Shown here piece by piece: positions 18,169 through 38,239 of a stretch of 43,490 nt of DNA. The DNA lies in the IMG/VR virus record IMGVR_UViG_3300044949_001377, positions 1-43,490 of that record, one strand, 5' to 3'. The stretch is from a virus. A program made the translations under genes and the position numbers. The number at the start of each line of letters is the position of its first letter. Positions within the stretch are counted from its first letter, which is position 1. A model generated the notes under the pieces. It was given only the letters and a program-made list of their open reading frames with translations, did not search any database and was not told the DNA's origin.

Positions 18169-18702
18169 ATGCAAGCCAAGCCACTTCCTCCCCTGAGGCT
18201 GGTCGAGCAGTATTTGAAATTAGATTCAACAAGCCCCAGTGGACTACGCTGGATTAAGCGTCCTTCACCTGCTGTAGACAAGGGAGATATTGCTGGATAT
18301 TTACATCAAGACTCAAATCGATGGATGGTGAAATTCAAATCAAAACTCTATCTTGCTTACCGTATTGTTTTTTATTTAACACACAAAAAAGACCCAGGAA
18401 ATCTTCAAATTGACCACATTAACGGAAAGCCGAGCAATAATTGTATTGAAAACTTAAGACTTGCTACTCCACAGCAAAATTGCGCAGCACGCATAAAAAC
18501 AAGAAAGAAAAACGGACAAAAACCGTCAAAATATAGAGGTGTTAAATGGGACGCAGGACGAAAGAAGTGGAAAGCATACATTACTTATAAATTGAAAAGG
18601 ATTGAACTAGGACGTTTTGAAACAGAAGAAGAGGCCGCAATCGCTTATGACAAAGCAAATAAAGAGTTGAATGGCGACTTTGCTGTTCTTAATTTACCTT
18701 GA
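18169..18702 (+). CDS. HNH homing endonuclease with AP2 domain
   Basis: This 177-residue protein starts LPPLRLVEQYLKLDSTSPSG. It has the HNH core LQIDHINGKPSNNCIENLRLAT at about residues 82-103, where DH, N and N positions are intact. A C-terminal AP2 domain follows (KYRGVKWDAGRKKWKAYI, then ELGRFETEEEAAIAYDKA). It is a close relative of the proteins at 3158 and 37072. It sits between two tail-fibre genes that share repeat units, a place where homing and recombination could shuffle host-range genes. Codon use is AT-richer than the fibres. Confidence 0.93.
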   Translation: MQAKPLPPLRLVEQYLKLDSTSPSGLRWIKRPSPAVDKGDIAGYLHQDSNRWMVKFKSKLYLAYRIVFYLTHKKDPGNLQIDHINGKPSNNCIENLRLATPQQNCAARIKTRKKNGQKPSKYRGVKWDAGRKKWKAYITYKLKRIELGRFETEEEAAIAYDKANKELNGDFAVLNLP

Positions 18703-24078: not shown

Positions 24079-24986
24079 GGCCTGTTAGTTAGAGGAAGAA
24101 AGAGTTCAGGGAAGCGATCAGTGTCTTGATGTTCCCTCTCCCATGCATTTTGCCACTCCGACAAGGAATGGTCATGAACTGTGTCGTAATACGCATCATC
24201 TCCTACTTCAAGAATAATCTTATAATTATCATAGTCCGCAGCAGGGATGCGTTCACCGATATACCAGGTGATTCCCGGATTGACGGTCACTGTTACACCA
24301 GATGCAATCTCACAACTTGTTTCAGAAAACGAATTAACACTAATTGTTAAATCGCTTAAGATTGGACCAACGATTTCTGCCGCATCAATTTCAGTTTCTT
24401 GTAAACAAACTGAACCATCGGAGTCTTCTAGTTCAAAAAAAGCTTCTTGCGTTGGGAACTCAATGACAACACCAAGTTCGTACTCAAGTGTTTCGTTACG
24501 TGTTGAAGAGATGCAGATGAGATAGCTGCCTGCACTCAATGGGTAATAACGGTCATCGCCTCGGTCCAGGCGATTACGCATGTATGTGTTGTATAGATCA
24601 GACTGTGCACTCATTACCGTATCTAAATACGGAATGTAAGTAGACCCATTGGTATCTACCTGAACAGAATCTGCATCAAAGATTGGGTTGCCTTGGATTG
24701 GTGTTTTGTTTAGGTCATAGGCAGAAACTTGAATGTACCTGGGACGTGGTGGTCCCTTGGTAAGAATGATCCAACCGGGAGTAGCTAGTGTGGCAACAAA
24801 CCAATGATTGAACGTGCCGCCGCCAATGCCACCGTTAGAGGTTTGATTGGTATCAGCACGTCCAATAACTTTCCACTGTGGACCAAGAGTGCCTTTAAGG
24901 TAACGCAGTGTGGTTTGACTGAACGTACCGAGATTTAAAGGATTATTCTGAGTTCTTTGCGGTTGACTTACCGAACTCCTGGACAT
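24075..24986 (-). CDS. Virion structural protein, probable tail or fibre component
   Basis: A 303-residue protein starting at the ATG at 24986; an earlier in-frame start at 25082 would lie deep in the HNH gene upstream. The central 200 residues are beta-rich with LNLGTFSQTTLRYLKGT and FNHWFVATLATPGWIIL, and later acidic strands (EAFFELEDSDGSVCLQETEID). The C-terminal region ends in a YDNYKIILEVGDDAYYDTV segment. No enzymatic motif is recognised. It overlaps the HNH gene by 44 bases at its 5' end and the next small gene by four. The composition points to a structural role. Confidence 0.5.
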   Translation of the reverse strand: MSRSSVSQPQRTQNNPLNLGTFSQTTLRYLKGTLGPQWKVIGRADTNQTSNGGIGGGTFNHWFVATLATPGWIILTKGPPRPRYIQVSAYDLNKTPIQGNPIFDADSVQVDTNGSTYIPYLDTVMSAQSDLYNTYMRNRLDRGDDRYYPLSAGSYLICISSTRNETLEYELGVVIEFPTQEAFFELEDSDGSVCLQETEIDAAEIVGPILSDLTISVNSFSETSCEIASGVTVTVNPGITWYIGERIPAADYDNYKIILEVGDDAYYDTVHDHSLSEWQNAWEREHQDTDRFPELFLPLTNRP

Positions 24987-25683
24987 ATGACCCGTAGTAC
25001 AACTCCTGTGTCTCATCATAATCCGGGGTATTTTTGTGTACCAACGGATGTTGAATTGTGTTTTTGTATTGCTGCTCCACAACAGGAAGAGGTTTATCTC
25101 TTAACTGATTTTGCGCCGAGTGCATTGACTTTGCTGGGTCAAACTCAACACAAAATGGGTGAATAGTTTTAGGTGGAAATGTGCGATTCCAACTTGAAAC
25201 TAAATGTAGAGGGTTGAGACAGGCTTTGTTTTTGCACGTGCGGGTCACAAACATTTTGCCGACATCGCCCCATGCACATTGATAAATTGCTTTGTGCACA
25301 CTAATGTTGTCATTCGTTTTGTCGTTGTAGAAGTTGCGATACGAAGGAAAACGTATGCGTTTACCTCCTAGCCAAGGCACTTCCCAGCACTCATCCCATT
25401 CACCAACAGCGATCTGGTTCCAGAGACCAAGAAGCCGTGCCTTGTAATTCTTGTTGAGGTAATTGAGGTCAAAACCGCAAGCATTGCTTTGGATCTTGCG
25501 AACGCATTCATAGCACCAATGTTCTTCTTTGTGACGTATGCGGTGTCCATGAACACAATAATAGCCACGATAGTAGCCATGAAAGTTCAAGTATTCTTCT
25601 GGCATTTCATGAATGCCTTCAATAAAAGGAAGCGTTGTTATGGACTCAGCTAAAAGAAGAAGTTTTTTGGTAACGTAAGCCAT
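24943..25683 (-). CDS. Zinc-loop HNH_3-type homing endonuclease
   Basis: This 246-residue protein starts at the ATG at 25683 (MAYVTKKLLLLAESITTL); the longer ORF to 25764 overlaps the upstream gene. Residues about 43-65 hold paired cysteines and histidines (YCVHGHRIRHKEEHWCYEC). The C-terminal half has the nuclease loop VTRTCKNKACLNPLHLVSSW, the 'C.n..CiNP.HL' pattern of zinc-binding-loop HNH homing endonucleases. A gene of this kind placed so its tail overlaps the next gene's start looks like a mobile insertion that adapted the junction. Function beyond DNA cutting is not visible. Confidence 0.72.
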   Translation of the reverse strand: MAYVTKKLLLLAESITTLPFIEGIHEMPEEYLNFHGYYRGYYCVHGHRIRHKEEHWCYECVRKIQSNACGFDLNYLNKNYKARLLGLWNQIAVGEWDECWEVPWLGGKRIRFPSYRNFYNDKTNDNISVHKAIYQCAWGDVGKMFVTRTCKNKACLNPLHLVSSWNRTFPPKTIHPFCVEFDPAKSMHSAQNQLRDKPLPVVEQQYKNTIQHPLVHKNTPDYDETQELYYGSYVQEFGKSTAKNSE

Positions 25684-25693
25684 TGTTTTAAAG

Positions 25694-26119
25694 TCAGTAC
25701 GTGGTTTTGTTGACGAATTTGTAGTTTGTATCAGGCTCGCGATAGACAAGATTACCATCTTCATCGCGTACGCGACGCCGATACTTAGGTGCCGGACGAT
25801 TTTTGCGTTTGTATAGCGTAAGGTTTAAGCGATTGTCGCGTGAAATATTGTCTTTATCGTGAAGCACATCTGCATCCCCTGGATCAATACCCGTACGCAA
25901 GTAATAAACCACACGATGTGCAGTGTAACGCGTACCAAGTATAGATACGGTGTAAAACCGTCCATGCGTTAAAAGCTTCCCTGCAACATCCCCTGCGTCA
26001 TGGTAACGATCCGATGTTTTCCACACAAGGCCAGAAGGGTGGTCAGCAGTCAGTTCCAGATTTTCCTGGACCCACCACAAGGGCGGCATCTCGTGATAAG
26101 TACGGGCCACTGGCACCAA
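25694..26119 (-). CDS. HNH endonuclease-family protein with altered core
   Basis: A 141-residue protein with the same N-terminal plan as the AP2-HNH group (MPPLWWVQENLELTADHPSG, then LVWKTSDRYHDAGDVAGK). It also has the HRVVYYLRTGIDPGD segment before the nuclease region. There the core reads DVLHDKDNISRDNRLNLTLY: the first His of DH and one Asn are retained but spacing differs, and no AP2 domain follows. The C terminus is basic (KYRRRVRDEDG). It may be an inactive or narrow-range relative. It lies ten bases from the next HNH gene, giving two adjacent endonuclease-type genes. Confidence 0.65.
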   Translation of the reverse strand: MVPVARTYHEMPPLWWVQENLELTADHPSGLVWKTSDRYHDAGDVAGKLLTHGRFYTVSILGTRYTAHRVVYYLRTGIDPGDADVLHDKDNISRDNRLNLTLYKRKNRPAPKYRRRVRDEDGNLVYREPDTNYKFVNKTTY

Positions 26120-35085: not shown

Positions 35086-35250
35086 ATGGCTAAAGCAGTT
35101 CCCCCTAAAGGCAAAGCTGTTCCTCCCAAGGGCAAAGAAGCTCCTGCTAAAGGCAAAGCAGGCGGCACTGACAAGCAAGCTGCTGCTCGCGATAAGTTCA
35201 AGGCAATGATTGAGGCTAAGAAAGCCGCAGCCGCCAAGAAGAAAAAATAG
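35086..35250 (+). CDS. Histone-H1-like Lys/Ala/Pro-rich peptide
   Basis: A 54-residue ORF with tandem units KAVPPKGKAVPPKGKEAPAK, then a Lys/Ala-rich end (AMIEAKKAAAAKKKK). PPKGK-type repeats and a poly-Lys tail resemble eukaryotic-like or bacterial H1-type DNA-condensing tails. It is preceded by TATAGAAT and GATACT promoter-like sequences. Likely to bind the DNA backbone; role not tested. Confidence 0.6.
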   Translation: MAKAVPPKGKAVPPKGKEAPAKGKAGGTDKQAAARDKFKAMIEAKKAAAAKKKK

Positions 35251-35356
35251 TGATATGCTGACACACGGAGCAATACCGCTCCGGAGCTAATAGTCGAACG
35301 CTCCTTCACGTTACGAAGTAGTGCTTAGCAACAGCTTGAGTGGGAAGGAAGTATGA

Positions 35357-35380
35357 TCCCGGTATACACCGGGATTTTTT
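35357..35380 (+). terminator. Rho-independent terminator
   Basis: A perfect 7-bp stem (TCCCGGT / ACCGGGA, loop ATAC) is followed by six T residues, four bases before the ATG at 35385. It probably ends the basic-protein unit; transcripts of the next gene would have to read through it or start after it. A GGAGC/GCTCC inverted repeat lies upstream at about 35267-35282. Confidence 0.85.
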
Positions 35381-35384
35381 GTAC

Positions 35385-36014
35385 ATGGCATATTTGAATC
35401 ACAATCTTCCCGATTGGTCGTGCTACATACGAAACGAATTCCTTTACAACCACACCCAAGGCCATGGTGAGGTAACGAAATGTGACGTGCACTGTGTTGC
35501 TAGCCTTGAGAAACGGGTGCCGCTCTTTGAGGCATTCCTTGAGAATGGCGTCAACTGGACCAGGCGTCCGCTCCATGCGTTCTGCTGGAAGCCTGACGCA
35601 CCCATCGAACCACTGGAAGACGTCATGTACTGGGACTGTTTCTCACCATATATTGACGTACAGAAACGCGCCCGTCTTGCCGGCCTCCAGGCGGAGTTGA
35701 TCAAACCTAACGGTGACAAAGCCCTTGGGTCCTATATGTTTACACTTGACTGGTCATGGGAGAACAAAGGGACTACCGACTTCAACTTCTCAGAAACACC
35801 TGAGCATAAGTGCGCCCATCTCTTCAAGATGGACAGCGGCAACTACTATGCGTATCCCAATAACCGAATCATCTGGTACGACAACGCCTGGACTTTCAAT
35901 CGCATCAAGAGCAATCCAGGTTATGAGATTGATATGACGGTTTACTCCGTGGAAAACAAACGGAAGCTAGAGACCTCAGACCATTACATCTACGACGTAA
36001 AGCATGTAGAATAA
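35385..36014 (+). CDS. Conserved-looking phage protein, unknown function
   Basis: This 209-residue protein starts at the ATG at 35385; an earlier in-frame start at 35340 would be within the terminator. It is rich in aromatics and conserved-looking His/Asn positions: NHNLPDWSCYIRNEFLYN, VHCVASLEKRVPLFE, HAFCWKP, a FNFSETPEHKCAHLFKM run and YYAYPNNRIIWYDNAW. No catalytic motif is known to me, though I recall similar proteins from cyanophages. The preserved HxC/Cys pattern might bind a metal. It precedes the non-coding structured region. Confidence 0.55.
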   Translation: MAYLNHNLPDWSCYIRNEFLYNHTQGHGEVTKCDVHCVASLEKRVPLFEAFLENGVNWTRRPLHAFCWKPDAPIEPLEDVMYWDCFSPYIDVQKRARLAGLQAELIKPNGDKALGSYMFTLDWSWENKGTTDFNFSETPEHKCAHLFKMDSGNYYAYPNNRIIWYDNAWTFNRIKSNPGYEIDMTVYSVENKRKLETSDHYIYDVKHVE

Positions 36015-36609
36015 ATGGGTTCCCCCTCTCTTATGATGGGGCGCTTAAGTCCTGGGTACCCAGGCCATCTCCAGTGAGTAGCCGGTGTAGTAACTGGAGA
36101 TGTCAGTAACACCGGAAATGGGGAGGATAGGAAGCCGGTAATTTTAAATTGCCTTAGATGTGCATCCGCCCCCTCCCCGACAACCAACCATACTGCTCTG
36201 TCGGCATGGTGCATCAGTGGGGGTTGCTTGACTCAAGCATCTGTACTAGCTGATTGCGTGATAGAGGGCAAGCCACTGTTACATCCTTGAGGTGTATCAC
36301 GCTTGCTCCATCTATCGGTCGGTAGTCTAGTGGTCATGACACGCAGACAATGCAGTTGGAGTTTGGGTTCGATTCCCAACCGATCTAAAGGGTGCAACAA
36401 GGAACGTTGCATTAAACAAAGGATCCCCTCGGCCGCATCGTAGATTCACCGTTAAGTTTGTGGCAACACGGCACTAGCGATGGTCGGTGAACGTAGGCGG
36501 ACATCCTTGCCCTTAACAACACCCCCTATGCTTAGCTCTCAGATGTAGACCATTTTCTTGATATCAGGAAAATGGTCTATAGAGATGATGCACAAACCTG
36601 GGGGTCACT
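36015..36609 (+). ncRNA. Large structured non-coding region (possible ornate phage RNA)
   Basis: About 600 nt without a credible ORF on either strand, but with dense complementary pairing. Three pairs of stems are in pseudoknot (A-B-A'-B') order: 36066-36075/36093-36102 (10 bp) with 36082-36088/36109-36115 (7 bp); 36177-36182/36199-36204 with 36187-36191/36206-36210; and 36258-36263/36295-36300 with 36268-36273/36301-36306. Further stems are 36120-36126/36172-36178; nested 36421-36424/36503-36506, 36433-36436/36497-36500 and 36445-36451/36485-36491; and a 12-bp hairpin 36546-36557/36568-36579. A tRNA-like element is embedded at 36316-36387, and tRNA-Pro follows directly. The strand is assumed from the tRNAs. 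Large phage RNAs with tRNA neighbours (GOLLD, ROOL) are the nearest known analogues. Confidence 0.5.
36316..36387 (+). tRNA. tRNA-like element with intact acceptor and T arm, no normal anticodon arm
   Basis: 72 nt including the discriminator A. The acceptor pairs 6 of 7 (CGGTCGG with CCGATCT, first pair mismatched). The D-arm starts GTCTAGTGGTCATGAC (3 bp), and the T arm is perfect (TTGGG-TTCGATT-CCCAA). The 17 bases where the anticodon stem-loop belongs (CGCAGACAATGCAGTTG) cannot form a 5-bp stem, and only GCA/TGC pairs. It may be degenerate or part of the surrounding structured RNA rather than a decoding tRNA. No CCA is encoded. Confidence 0.45.
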
Positions 36610-36683
36610 CGGGGATTAGCGCAGTTTGGTAGCGCAATTGCTTTGGGAGCAATGGGTCGCAGGTTCAAATCCTGCATCTCCGA
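36610..36683 (+). tRNA. tRNA-Pro(UGG)
   Basis: 74 nt with all four arms. The acceptor CGGGGAT pairs with ATCTCCG (one G-T), the D-stem is GCGC/GCGC, the anticodon stem is ATTGC/GCAAT with loop TTTGGGA giving anticodon TGG, and the T stem is GCAGG/CCTGC with loop TTCAAAT. The 3' CCA is not encoded. Anticodon UGG reads CCA, the most used Pro codon type in this window. Confidence 0.95.
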
Positions 36684-36686
36684 TCA

Positions 36687-36762
36687 CACCTGGTGCGAAC
36701 TAATTGGATAAGACGGTTACTGCCGCTGCAGGACGATGTAGGTTCGAATCCTATCCAGGTGC
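36687..36762 (+). tRNA. tRNA-like element with perfect acceptor and T arm, odd middle
   Basis: 76 nt, the standard tRNA length, starting three bases after tRNA-Pro. The acceptor is a perfect 7 bp (CACCTGG/CCAGGTG), and the T arm (GTAGG-TTCGAAT-CCTAT) is good with one G-T. The D-loop carries AATTGGATAA, but the D-stem is weak and no 5-bp anticodon stem with a 7-base loop can be drawn. The middle shows only CTGC-CGCT-GCAG and CGG/CCG pairings. Identity is undetermined. Confidence 0.5.
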
Positions 36763-36808
36763 TATCGAGAATCTCAATAAACACCGTTTATCAAGAAAAC
36801 TGATAAAT

Positions 36809-36836: not shown

Positions 36837-37091
36837 GTGACCTGGGCCAACGCCAAAAAACGTATCGACAAGAATCGACAAAAGCTTTTGGAGTACAAGA
36901 AGACTTTGCAATGCGAAAAGTGTGGGCTGGATGATCACCGTGTCCTTGAGTTCCACCACGTAGGTGAGAAGGACAATAACATCTCATCTATGGTGAATCA
37001 CGGCTACGCCTGGAGCAGCGTCGAAGCAGAGATTGAGAAGTGCATTCCGCTTTGCTGCAACTGCCACAGGCTTATTCATTGGGAAAGTTAA
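36837..37091 (+). CDS. Small HNH endonuclease
   Basis: This 84-residue protein starts at GTG. CEKCGLDDHRVLEFHHVGEK and then KCIPLCCNCHRLIHW give CxxC, the HH nuclease pair and the second C..C plus H, a complete zinc HNH finger. It follows the tRNA cluster and is convergent with, and overlaps by 20 bases, another HNH gene on the minus strand, so endonucleases occupy the downstream side of the tRNA region. The hairpin before its start codon suggests controlled expression. Confidence 0.85.
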   Translation: MTWANAKKRIDKNRQKLLEYKKTLQCEKCGLDDHRVLEFHHVGEKDNNISSMVNHGYAWSSVEAEIEKCIPLCCNCHRLIHWES

Positions 37092-37623
37092 GTCTTGCGT
37101 ATTCTCCCCAAAGTTCTTTAGCTTTTTTATCGTAAGCCAAAGCAGCGTCCACTTCTAGATTGTATCGTCCAAGATTGTATTTTTTACTTTCTTTCATTAT
37201 TGCAGCTAACCATTTGTTTCTGTTTTTATCCCAAGAGACTCCTTTGTATTGGCTACTTACTTTTTTATTTCCATAGGTTTTTATTTTGATTCTATTTGCC
37301 TGATTTTGAGCAGGTGTCGCTTCTCGTATTGACATATTATCTTCCTTGTTTTTTCTATGGTCTATATAATTTAAACCAGGATCTTTTTCTGTTTTTAAAT
37401 AAAAAATAACTCTATGCACAAAATATATCTTTGAGGTTTTGTTATAGGATATTTGTACTTGCCAGTATTTATTCTTTTTTCTTAGTGTACCTGCAACGTC
37501 CCCAGGCTTTAGCCTTGCGCATATCGGATTTTTCCACCTCAAACCGCTAGGAGAAGAGTCATCGATACTAAATAAATTATTTACAAACTCAAAGGGAGGA
37601 AGGGGGTTTGTTAAAATTGTCAT
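37072..37623 (-). CDS. HNH homing endonuclease with AP2 domain
   Basis: This 183-residue protein has LPPFEFVNNLFSIDDSSPSG at the N terminus, an FVHRVIFYLKTEKDPG segment, the HNH core NYIDHRKNKEDNMSIREAT and the AP2 domain QYKGVSWDKNRNKWLAAIM then NLEVDAALAYDKKAKEL. The DH and N positions of the nuclease are kept. The close relatives at 3158 and 18169 indicate spread within this genome. The AT-rich coding sequence differs clearly from the flanking genes, which suggests recent acquisition. Confidence 0.92.
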   Translation of the reverse strand: MTILTNPLPPFEFVNNLFSIDDSSPSGLRWKNPICARLKPGDVAGTLRKKNKYWQVQISYNKTSKIYFVHRVIFYLKTEKDPGLNYIDHRKNKEDNMSIREATPAQNQANRIKIKTYGNKKVSSQYKGVSWDKNRNKWLAAIMKESKKYNLGRYNLEVDAALAYDKKAKELWGEYARLNFPNE

Positions 37624-37687: not shown

Positions 37688-38239
37688 TTAAGCGTTGCGA
37701 AGTGAGGCTTTGAGGAACCAAGCCGCTTTGAATGTTTCTCCAACAAGCTCTGCAAGATAATTTTGCACATCTACTGCGTCTACTTTTGCAGCCACTTTTT
37801 CTAATTTTTTGGCCATCATTCCAAGTTCTTCTAGGTTTTTGTAATATGTACCAAGCATTTCACTAGGTTTATAACTGACACAGTGTTTAAATTGCGGCGT
37901 AGCCTGCATAAGGCCTTCGCTGCACATCGGGGTTAAGTAATCAAGAGAGCGGATGAATTCGCCAATGGTATCAAACTGGCTAAGGTGAGCTTCATATTGG
38001 TCTTTAAGGAATGCGTGGATACCTAAAAAGTTAGGAGCCTCATAGTTTAAATGTAGTAAATGAGATTGCACCTGAAGCTGATGAATGTAACCCATCAGGC
38101 TAATCAGTTGCTGGATGAAGGCCCCGACGTCACCATTCTTTGATTTACTTGGAGCCTTGGGCTTGGCCTGTGGCTCTGGAGCAGCTTGAGGTGCAGGAGT
38201 TTGAGCTACGGCAACCGTTTGAGGACCAGGAGTATACAT
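37688..38239 (-). CDS. Dps-like ferritin (DNA protection during starvation family)
   Basis: A 183-residue protein with a disordered Ala/Pro/Gln/Lys-rich N-terminal tail (residues 1-37, including PQAKPKAPSKSK) and a helical body. The ferroxidase ligands are all present with exactly the Dps spacing: His63 in HLNYEAPNF, His75 in GIHAFL, Asp90 and Glu94 in FDTIGEFIRSL (12, 15 and 4 residues apart). Dps proteins form 12-mers that oxidise and store iron at dimer interfaces and protect DNA from peroxide; basic tails can bind DNA. Here it could protect the infected cell or bind phage DNA. Confidence 0.85.
   Translation of the reverse strand: MYTPGPQTVAVAQTPAPQAAPEPQAKPKAPSKSKNGDVGAFIQQLISLMGYIHQLQVQSHLLHLNYEAPNFLGIHAFLKDQYEAHLSQFDTIGEFIRSLDYLTPMCSEGLMQATPQFKHCVSYKPSEMLGTYYKNLEELGMMAKKLEKVAAKVDAVDVQNYLAELVGETFKAAWFLKASLRNA

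Follow-up and report, generated by a model that had tools for sequence, protein, structure and literature searches.

Positions 36015-36609 of the window (the whole 43.5-kb virus record, IMGVR_UViG_3300044949_001377, analyzed at its full length of 43,490 nucleotides) lie between a protein gene and a tRNA gene, and raise the question of whether these 595 nt specify one large ornate phage RNA, as the preliminary description of this DNA proposed. The record encodes members of the primase, exonuclease, dCTP deaminase, tail fibre and endolysin families; these gene families give no firm placement, and we infer a cyanobacterial host from the relatives of the window. A ferritin-like protein gene (Pfam PF00210) is also present at 37691-38239 on the minus strand. 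The region had been described as lacking any credible ORF, and a conserved reading frame is indeed absent from 36015-36609. A protein gene carrying a frameshift was ruled out on the basis of this absence and of covariation that fits RNA. The fold of the strand was beaten by only 1 of 100 shuffles (z of -3.4). These data indicate that the 595 nt are genuine structured non-coding RNA.

The region is a chain of discrete modules and not a single GOLLD/ROOL-like molecule. Rfam models for GOLLD, ROOL and tmRNA gave no match at the gathering threshold or at E-values up to 5, and neither the covariance model nor ARAGORN called a tmRNA in the window. Among the modules, only D and the tRNAs are recognized by Rfam. 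Comparison by blastn with phage records yielded short separate matches to Synechococcus phages, their order unlike that of the window. We gathered further loci, hundreds in all, by pattern scans of IMG/VR and by profile searches. Each conserved piece was found alone and in other orders elsewhere, contradicting the earlier proposal that all the pieces belong to one RNA. The correct unit is a module of 30-130 nt rather than the 600-nt region, and the structured stretch continues past 36609 to a second tRNA-like element. The earlier proposal thus holds insofar as the region is structured, non-coding, mostly new to Rfam and located beside cyanophage tRNAs, with the predicted tRNA-Pro adjoining, but fails as to a single ornate RNA. 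We regard the module anatomy given in Table 1 as close to certain.

Table 1. Features of the RNA array and its flanks, in positions of the window. Locus counts are of contigs, except for E (distinct relatives).
Feature	Position	Strand	Loci	Basis or remark
Upstream protein gene, 209 aa	35385-36014	+		PHROG 3704, labelled ferredoxin; PHROGs E 3e-50
Probable -10 element (TAGAAT) of the RNA array	36007-36012	+		Consensus scan and conservation
Leader GTTCCCCCTCTCTTATGATGGGGC, small hairpin, probable transcript 5′ end	36019-36042	+		Common to different module sets
Module G, first hairpin (TAAGTCCTGGG..CCAGGCC)	36043-36065	+	59	Short blastn matches; covarying stems
Module E, H-type pseudoknot then hairpin	36066-36180	+	12	Distinct relatives
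Module F, stem and invariant CTGCTCTGTCGG loop	36183-36213	+	36	Covarying stem
Linker with hairpin	36214-36257	+		Common to close relative L101
Module A, 57-nt hairpin RNA, conserved internal loops	36258-36314	+	156	Covariation; covariance model 82 bits
Module B*, tRNA-like element	36316-36387	+	180	Rfam tRNA 35.9 bits; covariance model 82 bits
Module C, branched RNA, GGG/CCC closing, variable tip hairpin	36388-36514	+	96	Covariance model 98 bits
Module D, abiF-type RNA	36517-36609	+	182	Rfam abiF ends at 36522-36605
Hairpin of 12 bp or more inserted in D	36546-36579	+		Recurs inside D of relatives
tRNA-Pro (TGG)	36609-36685	+		ARAGORN; Rfam gathering threshold
T2, second tRNA-like element	36687-36763	+	77	Covarying arms
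HNH endonuclease adjoining the array	36837-37091	+		PHROGs

Module E contains the pseudoknot of the array. Its 10-bp outer stem is formed by CATCTCCAGT (36066-36075) and ACTGGAGATG (36093-36102), its 7-bp crossing stem by CCGGTGT (36082-36088) and ACACCGG (36109-36115), and its 3′ hairpin is closed by GGGGAGG (36120-36126) and CCTCCCC (36172-36178). Of 1000 dinucleotide shuffles, 1 gave H-type stems as large as the two of E. In relatives the crossing stem stays fully paired (100%), and two of its pairs show double changes. The outer stem occurs in nine versions, every one complementary, and swapped arms pair on average at 3.2 of 6 positions; one or two bulged bases of the 3′ arm were omitted by hand for this comparison (L236, L339, L342). 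No Rfam match was found for E. The preliminary description had noted at least three stem pairs in pseudoknot order in the region. The H-type pseudoknot at 36066-36115 is borne out by the shuffles and by compensatory changes, whereas a second one that can be drawn, CCGACA/TGTCGG with CCAT/ATGG (approximately 36176-36213), is not kept in relatives. We rejected the latter because TGTCGG forms part of the loop that is invariant in F, and CCGACA is missing upstream of F in relatives.

Compensatory change in relatives, a check named in the preliminary description, was strong for A, B* and C as well as for the E pseudoknot. In module A, 97.7% of cells are paired over 20 pairs, both sides have changed at 13 of these, and slid controls were 33-46% paired; in module C, 100% of cells are paired. 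Double-change cells numbered 144 for A compared to 42 in shuffles (0 of 500 shuffles as high), 216 for B* compared to 69, and 97 for C compared to 28, counts that are not readable as probabilities because the sequences are related. Module B* is the embedded tRNA-like element that had been noticed earlier, and it passes the Rfam tRNA model, for which the cut-off is 29 bits; ARAGORN made no tRNA call for it in the window. A 7-nt anticodon loop is lacking, its place taken by a GACAA loop of 5 nt, carried by a short stem that covaries. This loop reads GACAA in 49 of 53 sequences across 16 stem combinations, and is thus a fixed loop on a changing stem rather than a 7-nt anticodon loop.

The covariance models were also run against whole genomes. 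The model for A found one copy in the window and one in each of 5 of 7 isolate genomes, that for C one copy in the window and one in each of 2 of the 7, and that for B* a single copy each in the window and six isolates, scoring 82-95 bits, with all its other matches below 45 bits. On two cyanobacterial plasmids the models for A and C had no match, a separate search of plasmids for A and C was negative too, and a genome scan with one exact pattern of the tRNA-like element likewise returned none. Module A is present but unannotated in the cultured phages S-RIM8, S-RIM32, S-SZBM1, S-CREM1 and S-SRM01, as is B* in S-PM2, S-CREM1, S-RIM8, S-RIM32, S-SZBM1 and DSL-LC03. Among 50,697 phage records searched, those matching A and B* were all Synechococcus phages. 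Covariation in F, G and T2 was taken from RNAalifold counts without a formal control. The usual second hairpin of G is missing in the window. In T2 the anticodon loop is usually replaced by a 4-nt loop, CGCT in the window, where ARAGORN did not call the element; some relatives have a much longer arm at the T2 site (loci compared were L084, L073, L065 and L069).

The sequence upstream of the modules was examined for signals that might direct their transcription. Of 24 distinct loci, 23 have a TANNNT hexamer at exactly -12 to -7 relative to the leader, including loci with unrelated upstream sequence, and a possible -35 element (ATTACA) is present in the window at 35983-35988. Loci that start with a variant of A have a TATAAT-like hexamer about equally close, sometimes right behind a terminator (L031, L061). 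The identical leader precedes different module sets. To judge from its conservation, the -10 element probably serves a dedicated transcription start for the array. The last codons of the upstream protein gene overlap this promoter. That gene gave no Pfam match, and its identification as CpeT was ruled out, there being no similarity to CpeT of S-RIM32 or S-PM2. Farther upstream, a short intergenic stretch at 35250-35380 is conserved in part across seven related loci and ends in a clear intrinsic terminator (35355-35376); it is possibly one more small RNA.

The modules are shuffled among the tRNA clusters of cyanophages. We found 64 module orders across 226 loci having two or more modules, numbers that, like those of Table 1, count contigs and not independent events, because IMG/VR contigs are partly redundant. 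The modules sit in tRNA clusters, where the nearest module or tRNA is mostly no more than 15 nt away from A, B*, C and D. All neighbors within 400 nt share one strand, with none in the opposite orientation. We counted 94 distinct ordered adjacencies, and 16 different features occur directly after D. Seven contigs in which the upstream protein shows 94-96% identity keep the leader behind the stop codon of that gene. The interval from leader to tRNA-Pro (to T2 in one case) in seven relatives holds A-C, C alone, the G hairpin and I, I-A-C, or D, and in L121 and L127 it consists of leader, A and tRNA-Pro alone. These differing contents behind the same leader indicate clean gain and loss of whole modules. 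HNH endonucleases are possible and plausible agents of the exchange. Besides the one adjoining the array, HNH-type endonucleases are encoded at 18169-18702 (plus strand) and at 24946-25764, 25697-26119 and 37075-37623 (minus strand). Two additional recurrent RNA-like modules occur in the same islands and are missing from the window, these being H (9 loci, among them L042, L050, L075 and L164) and I (L073, L156, L500).

Module D is the one module that can be assigned to a family with a known partner. The copy in the window aligns to both ends of the Rfam abiF model and scores 20.7 bits, under the cut-off of 37, because a 58-nt hairpin-bearing stretch replaces the 11-nt abiF loop. It keeps the outer and inner stems of abiF and the single-stranded 3′ segment, and the inner pairs of D covary (AGC/GCT and TGC/GCA). 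Shorter versions of D in related phages score above the cut-off, at 42-56 bits (S-CREM1, S-SZBM1, S-SRM01 and several contigs). The abiF RNA of S-CREM1 has been reported earlier (PMC9964418). The cultured cyanophage S-SRM01 (L578) carries an unannotated abiF RNA and module A, at 1057-1093 and 1201-1255. The 12-bp hairpin of the preliminary description is real and corresponds to the insert of D. Its arms, GACCATTTTGTTG...CAACAAAATGGTC, are nearly identical inside D of many relatives, and the hairpin was found once outside D (L049:5472-5501), from which it may be mobile.

We searched for the protein partner expected of an abiF RNA. Of 58 phage records searched for the AbiF domain (PF07751), comprising the window, 7 isolate genomes and 50 contigs (many of the contigs being fragments), not one contained it, whereas the identical search found it on two cyanobacterial plasmids. 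One of these plasmids, from Picosynechococcus PCC 8807, has upstream of its AbiF gene two matches to abiF RNA, both sub-threshold at 27.2 and 24.9 bits. In cellular genomes a near-consensus abiF core was found in 14 Bacteroidota. Across Bacteroidota loci such as L482, L488, L483 and L485, the core lies beside AbiF in some genomes and in others adjoins HigB/HigA-like, RhuM-like or acetyltransferase-like genes, named here by eye. This variety of gene neighbors suggests that abiF RNA may have more than one toxin as its partner. On sequence grounds, D belongs to the abiF RNA antitoxins and is an orphan carried by a phage.

An anti-AbiF role for D is proposed from its membership in the abiF family, its orphan state, the ability of abiF RNA to act in trans, and the precedents for RNA mimics in phages. 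The abiF RNA neutralizes AbiF both in cis and in trans, and its stems are required (PMC12373285). A review cites work on a region of lactococcal phage DNA that protects against AbiF (PMC12737573). On balance, we lean slightly toward D acting as an anti-AbiF RNA. According to this proposal, D would bind in trans to AbiF, a HEPN ribonuclease abortive-infection toxin of the infected host, and keep it inactive.

The explanation that best accommodates the array overall, and on which we consider the evidence evenly poised, is a hypervariable cassette of small RNA genes within a cyanophage tRNA cluster that is self-promoted, processed with the tRNAs and directed against host defenses. A sigma70-type promoter just before the leader, as suggested by the conserved -10 element, would start transcription, which would continue past the leader and the modules and extend into tRNA-Pro. 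Cleavage by RNase P and other enzymes of tRNA processing would then take place at the tRNA, and perhaps at the tRNA-like units, freeing the intervening RNAs; the 0-6 nt spacing is the reason for proposing this mode of release. Because the other modules are never coding and are freely exchanged with D, they may represent further RNA mimics, serving as decoys for other RNA-binding toxins, and the tRNA-like elements could be decoys for tRNA-cleaving nucleases. A decoy function for A, B*, C, E, F, G and T2 is a guess. Against the explanation weigh the low abiF score and large insert of D in the window, the occurrence of the phage-like abiF core in Bacteroidota, the sub-threshold scores of the plasmid matches, and the presumed regulatory role of manA and wcaG, which occur in such clusters as well. 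That the whole array serves counter-defense is a tentative reading, toward which we are more doubtful than inclined. The still broader proposal, that cyanophage tRNA clusters form a combinatorial arsenal of RNA counter-defense with a decoy for each toxin, cassette-like swapping and release by the tRNA machinery, appears somewhat unlikely.

One alternative is that the modules are cis-acting elements of a tRNA operon that fold between the tRNA genes, determine how the tRNA precursor is processed, how stable it is or where it ends, and do not act in trans. In favor of this, the modules lie 0-15 nt from tRNAs and share their strand without exception, and some clusters also hold manA and wcaG, which Rfam lists as cis-regulatory. 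However, the conserved internal loops and the invariant letters of the GACAA and CTGCTCTGTCGG loops are independent of the neighboring tRNA, one module precedes many different tRNAs or modules, arrays exist without an adjacent ordinary tRNA (L015, L061), and D comes from a trans-acting antitoxin family. We judge the cis-acting explanation unlikely. Less probable again is a regulatory role in which the modules sense metabolites or respond to light and so control phage or host genes, in the manner of manA and wcaG. Modules A and C are compact with conserved internal loops and the same phages do carry manA and wcaG (PMC2864571), but the modules lie between RNA genes and not in the 5′ UTR of one gene class, and the array would be started by the probable promoter of the leader itself. 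One large RNA of the GOLLD/ROOL type could account for the pseudoknot, the good folding energy and the position beside tRNAs, yet no model matches, the order is not conserved, and relatives with one or few modules between the same flanks contradict it, making it extremely improbable. Decayed tRNAs and mobile-element scars without function, as might be suspected from two tRNA-like elements missed by ARAGORN and from the HNH endonuclease genes that flank the array, can be dismissed just as firmly given the covariation of A, B*, C and E, the dozens of distinct sequences in which loops stay invariant and base changes are strongly compensated, and the conserved promoter.

At least seven structured RNA elements of the array are backed by sequence comparison (A, B*, C and E formally, F, G and T2 less so) and are not represented in Rfam by a dedicated family. 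Should D indeed act against AbiF, the array would provide a handle on unknown RNA-sensing defenses, with each unassigned module predicting a host partner, and might partly explain the long tRNA clusters of cyanophages.

The array can be compared with several known systems. GOLLD and ROOL (PMC12286853) are likewise phage RNAs near tRNA islands, with pseudoknots and without an assigned function, but each is a single large cage-forming molecule, whereas the array consists of small independent modules that match neither family model. The structured RNAs manA (RF01745) and wcaG (RF01761; PMC2864571) occur in the same phages and in the same tRNA cluster of S-CREM1; neither is present in the window, which excludes them as its identity, and the modules of the window match no Rfam family beyond abiF and tRNA. 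The abiF RNA (RF03085), which acts as the antitoxin in AbiF abortive infection (PMC12373285), shares with D both closing strands, an inner helix of 3 bp and the unpaired CACAAACC/CUCAAAUC segment, and has near-consensus copies in related phages; D differs in lacking an AbiF gene and in occurring as single copies before a tRNA or tRNA-like element. The pseudo-ToxI of phage PhiTE, which is thought to blunt a ribonuclease abortive-infection system, is also a phage RNA antitoxin without a toxin gene (PMC3475682), but it belongs to another RNA family with another toxin, and is built of tandem repeats in contrast to the mixture of RNAs and tRNAs in the array. The Racr RNA anti-CRISPRs (PMC10651486) are solitary viral RNA units imitating the RNA component of a host defense; they differ in mimicking CRISPR repeats, and PMC10651486 makes no mention of a tRNA-cluster setting. 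In common with pseudo-ToxI and Racr, D is an orphan copy of a host defense RNA residing in a phage.
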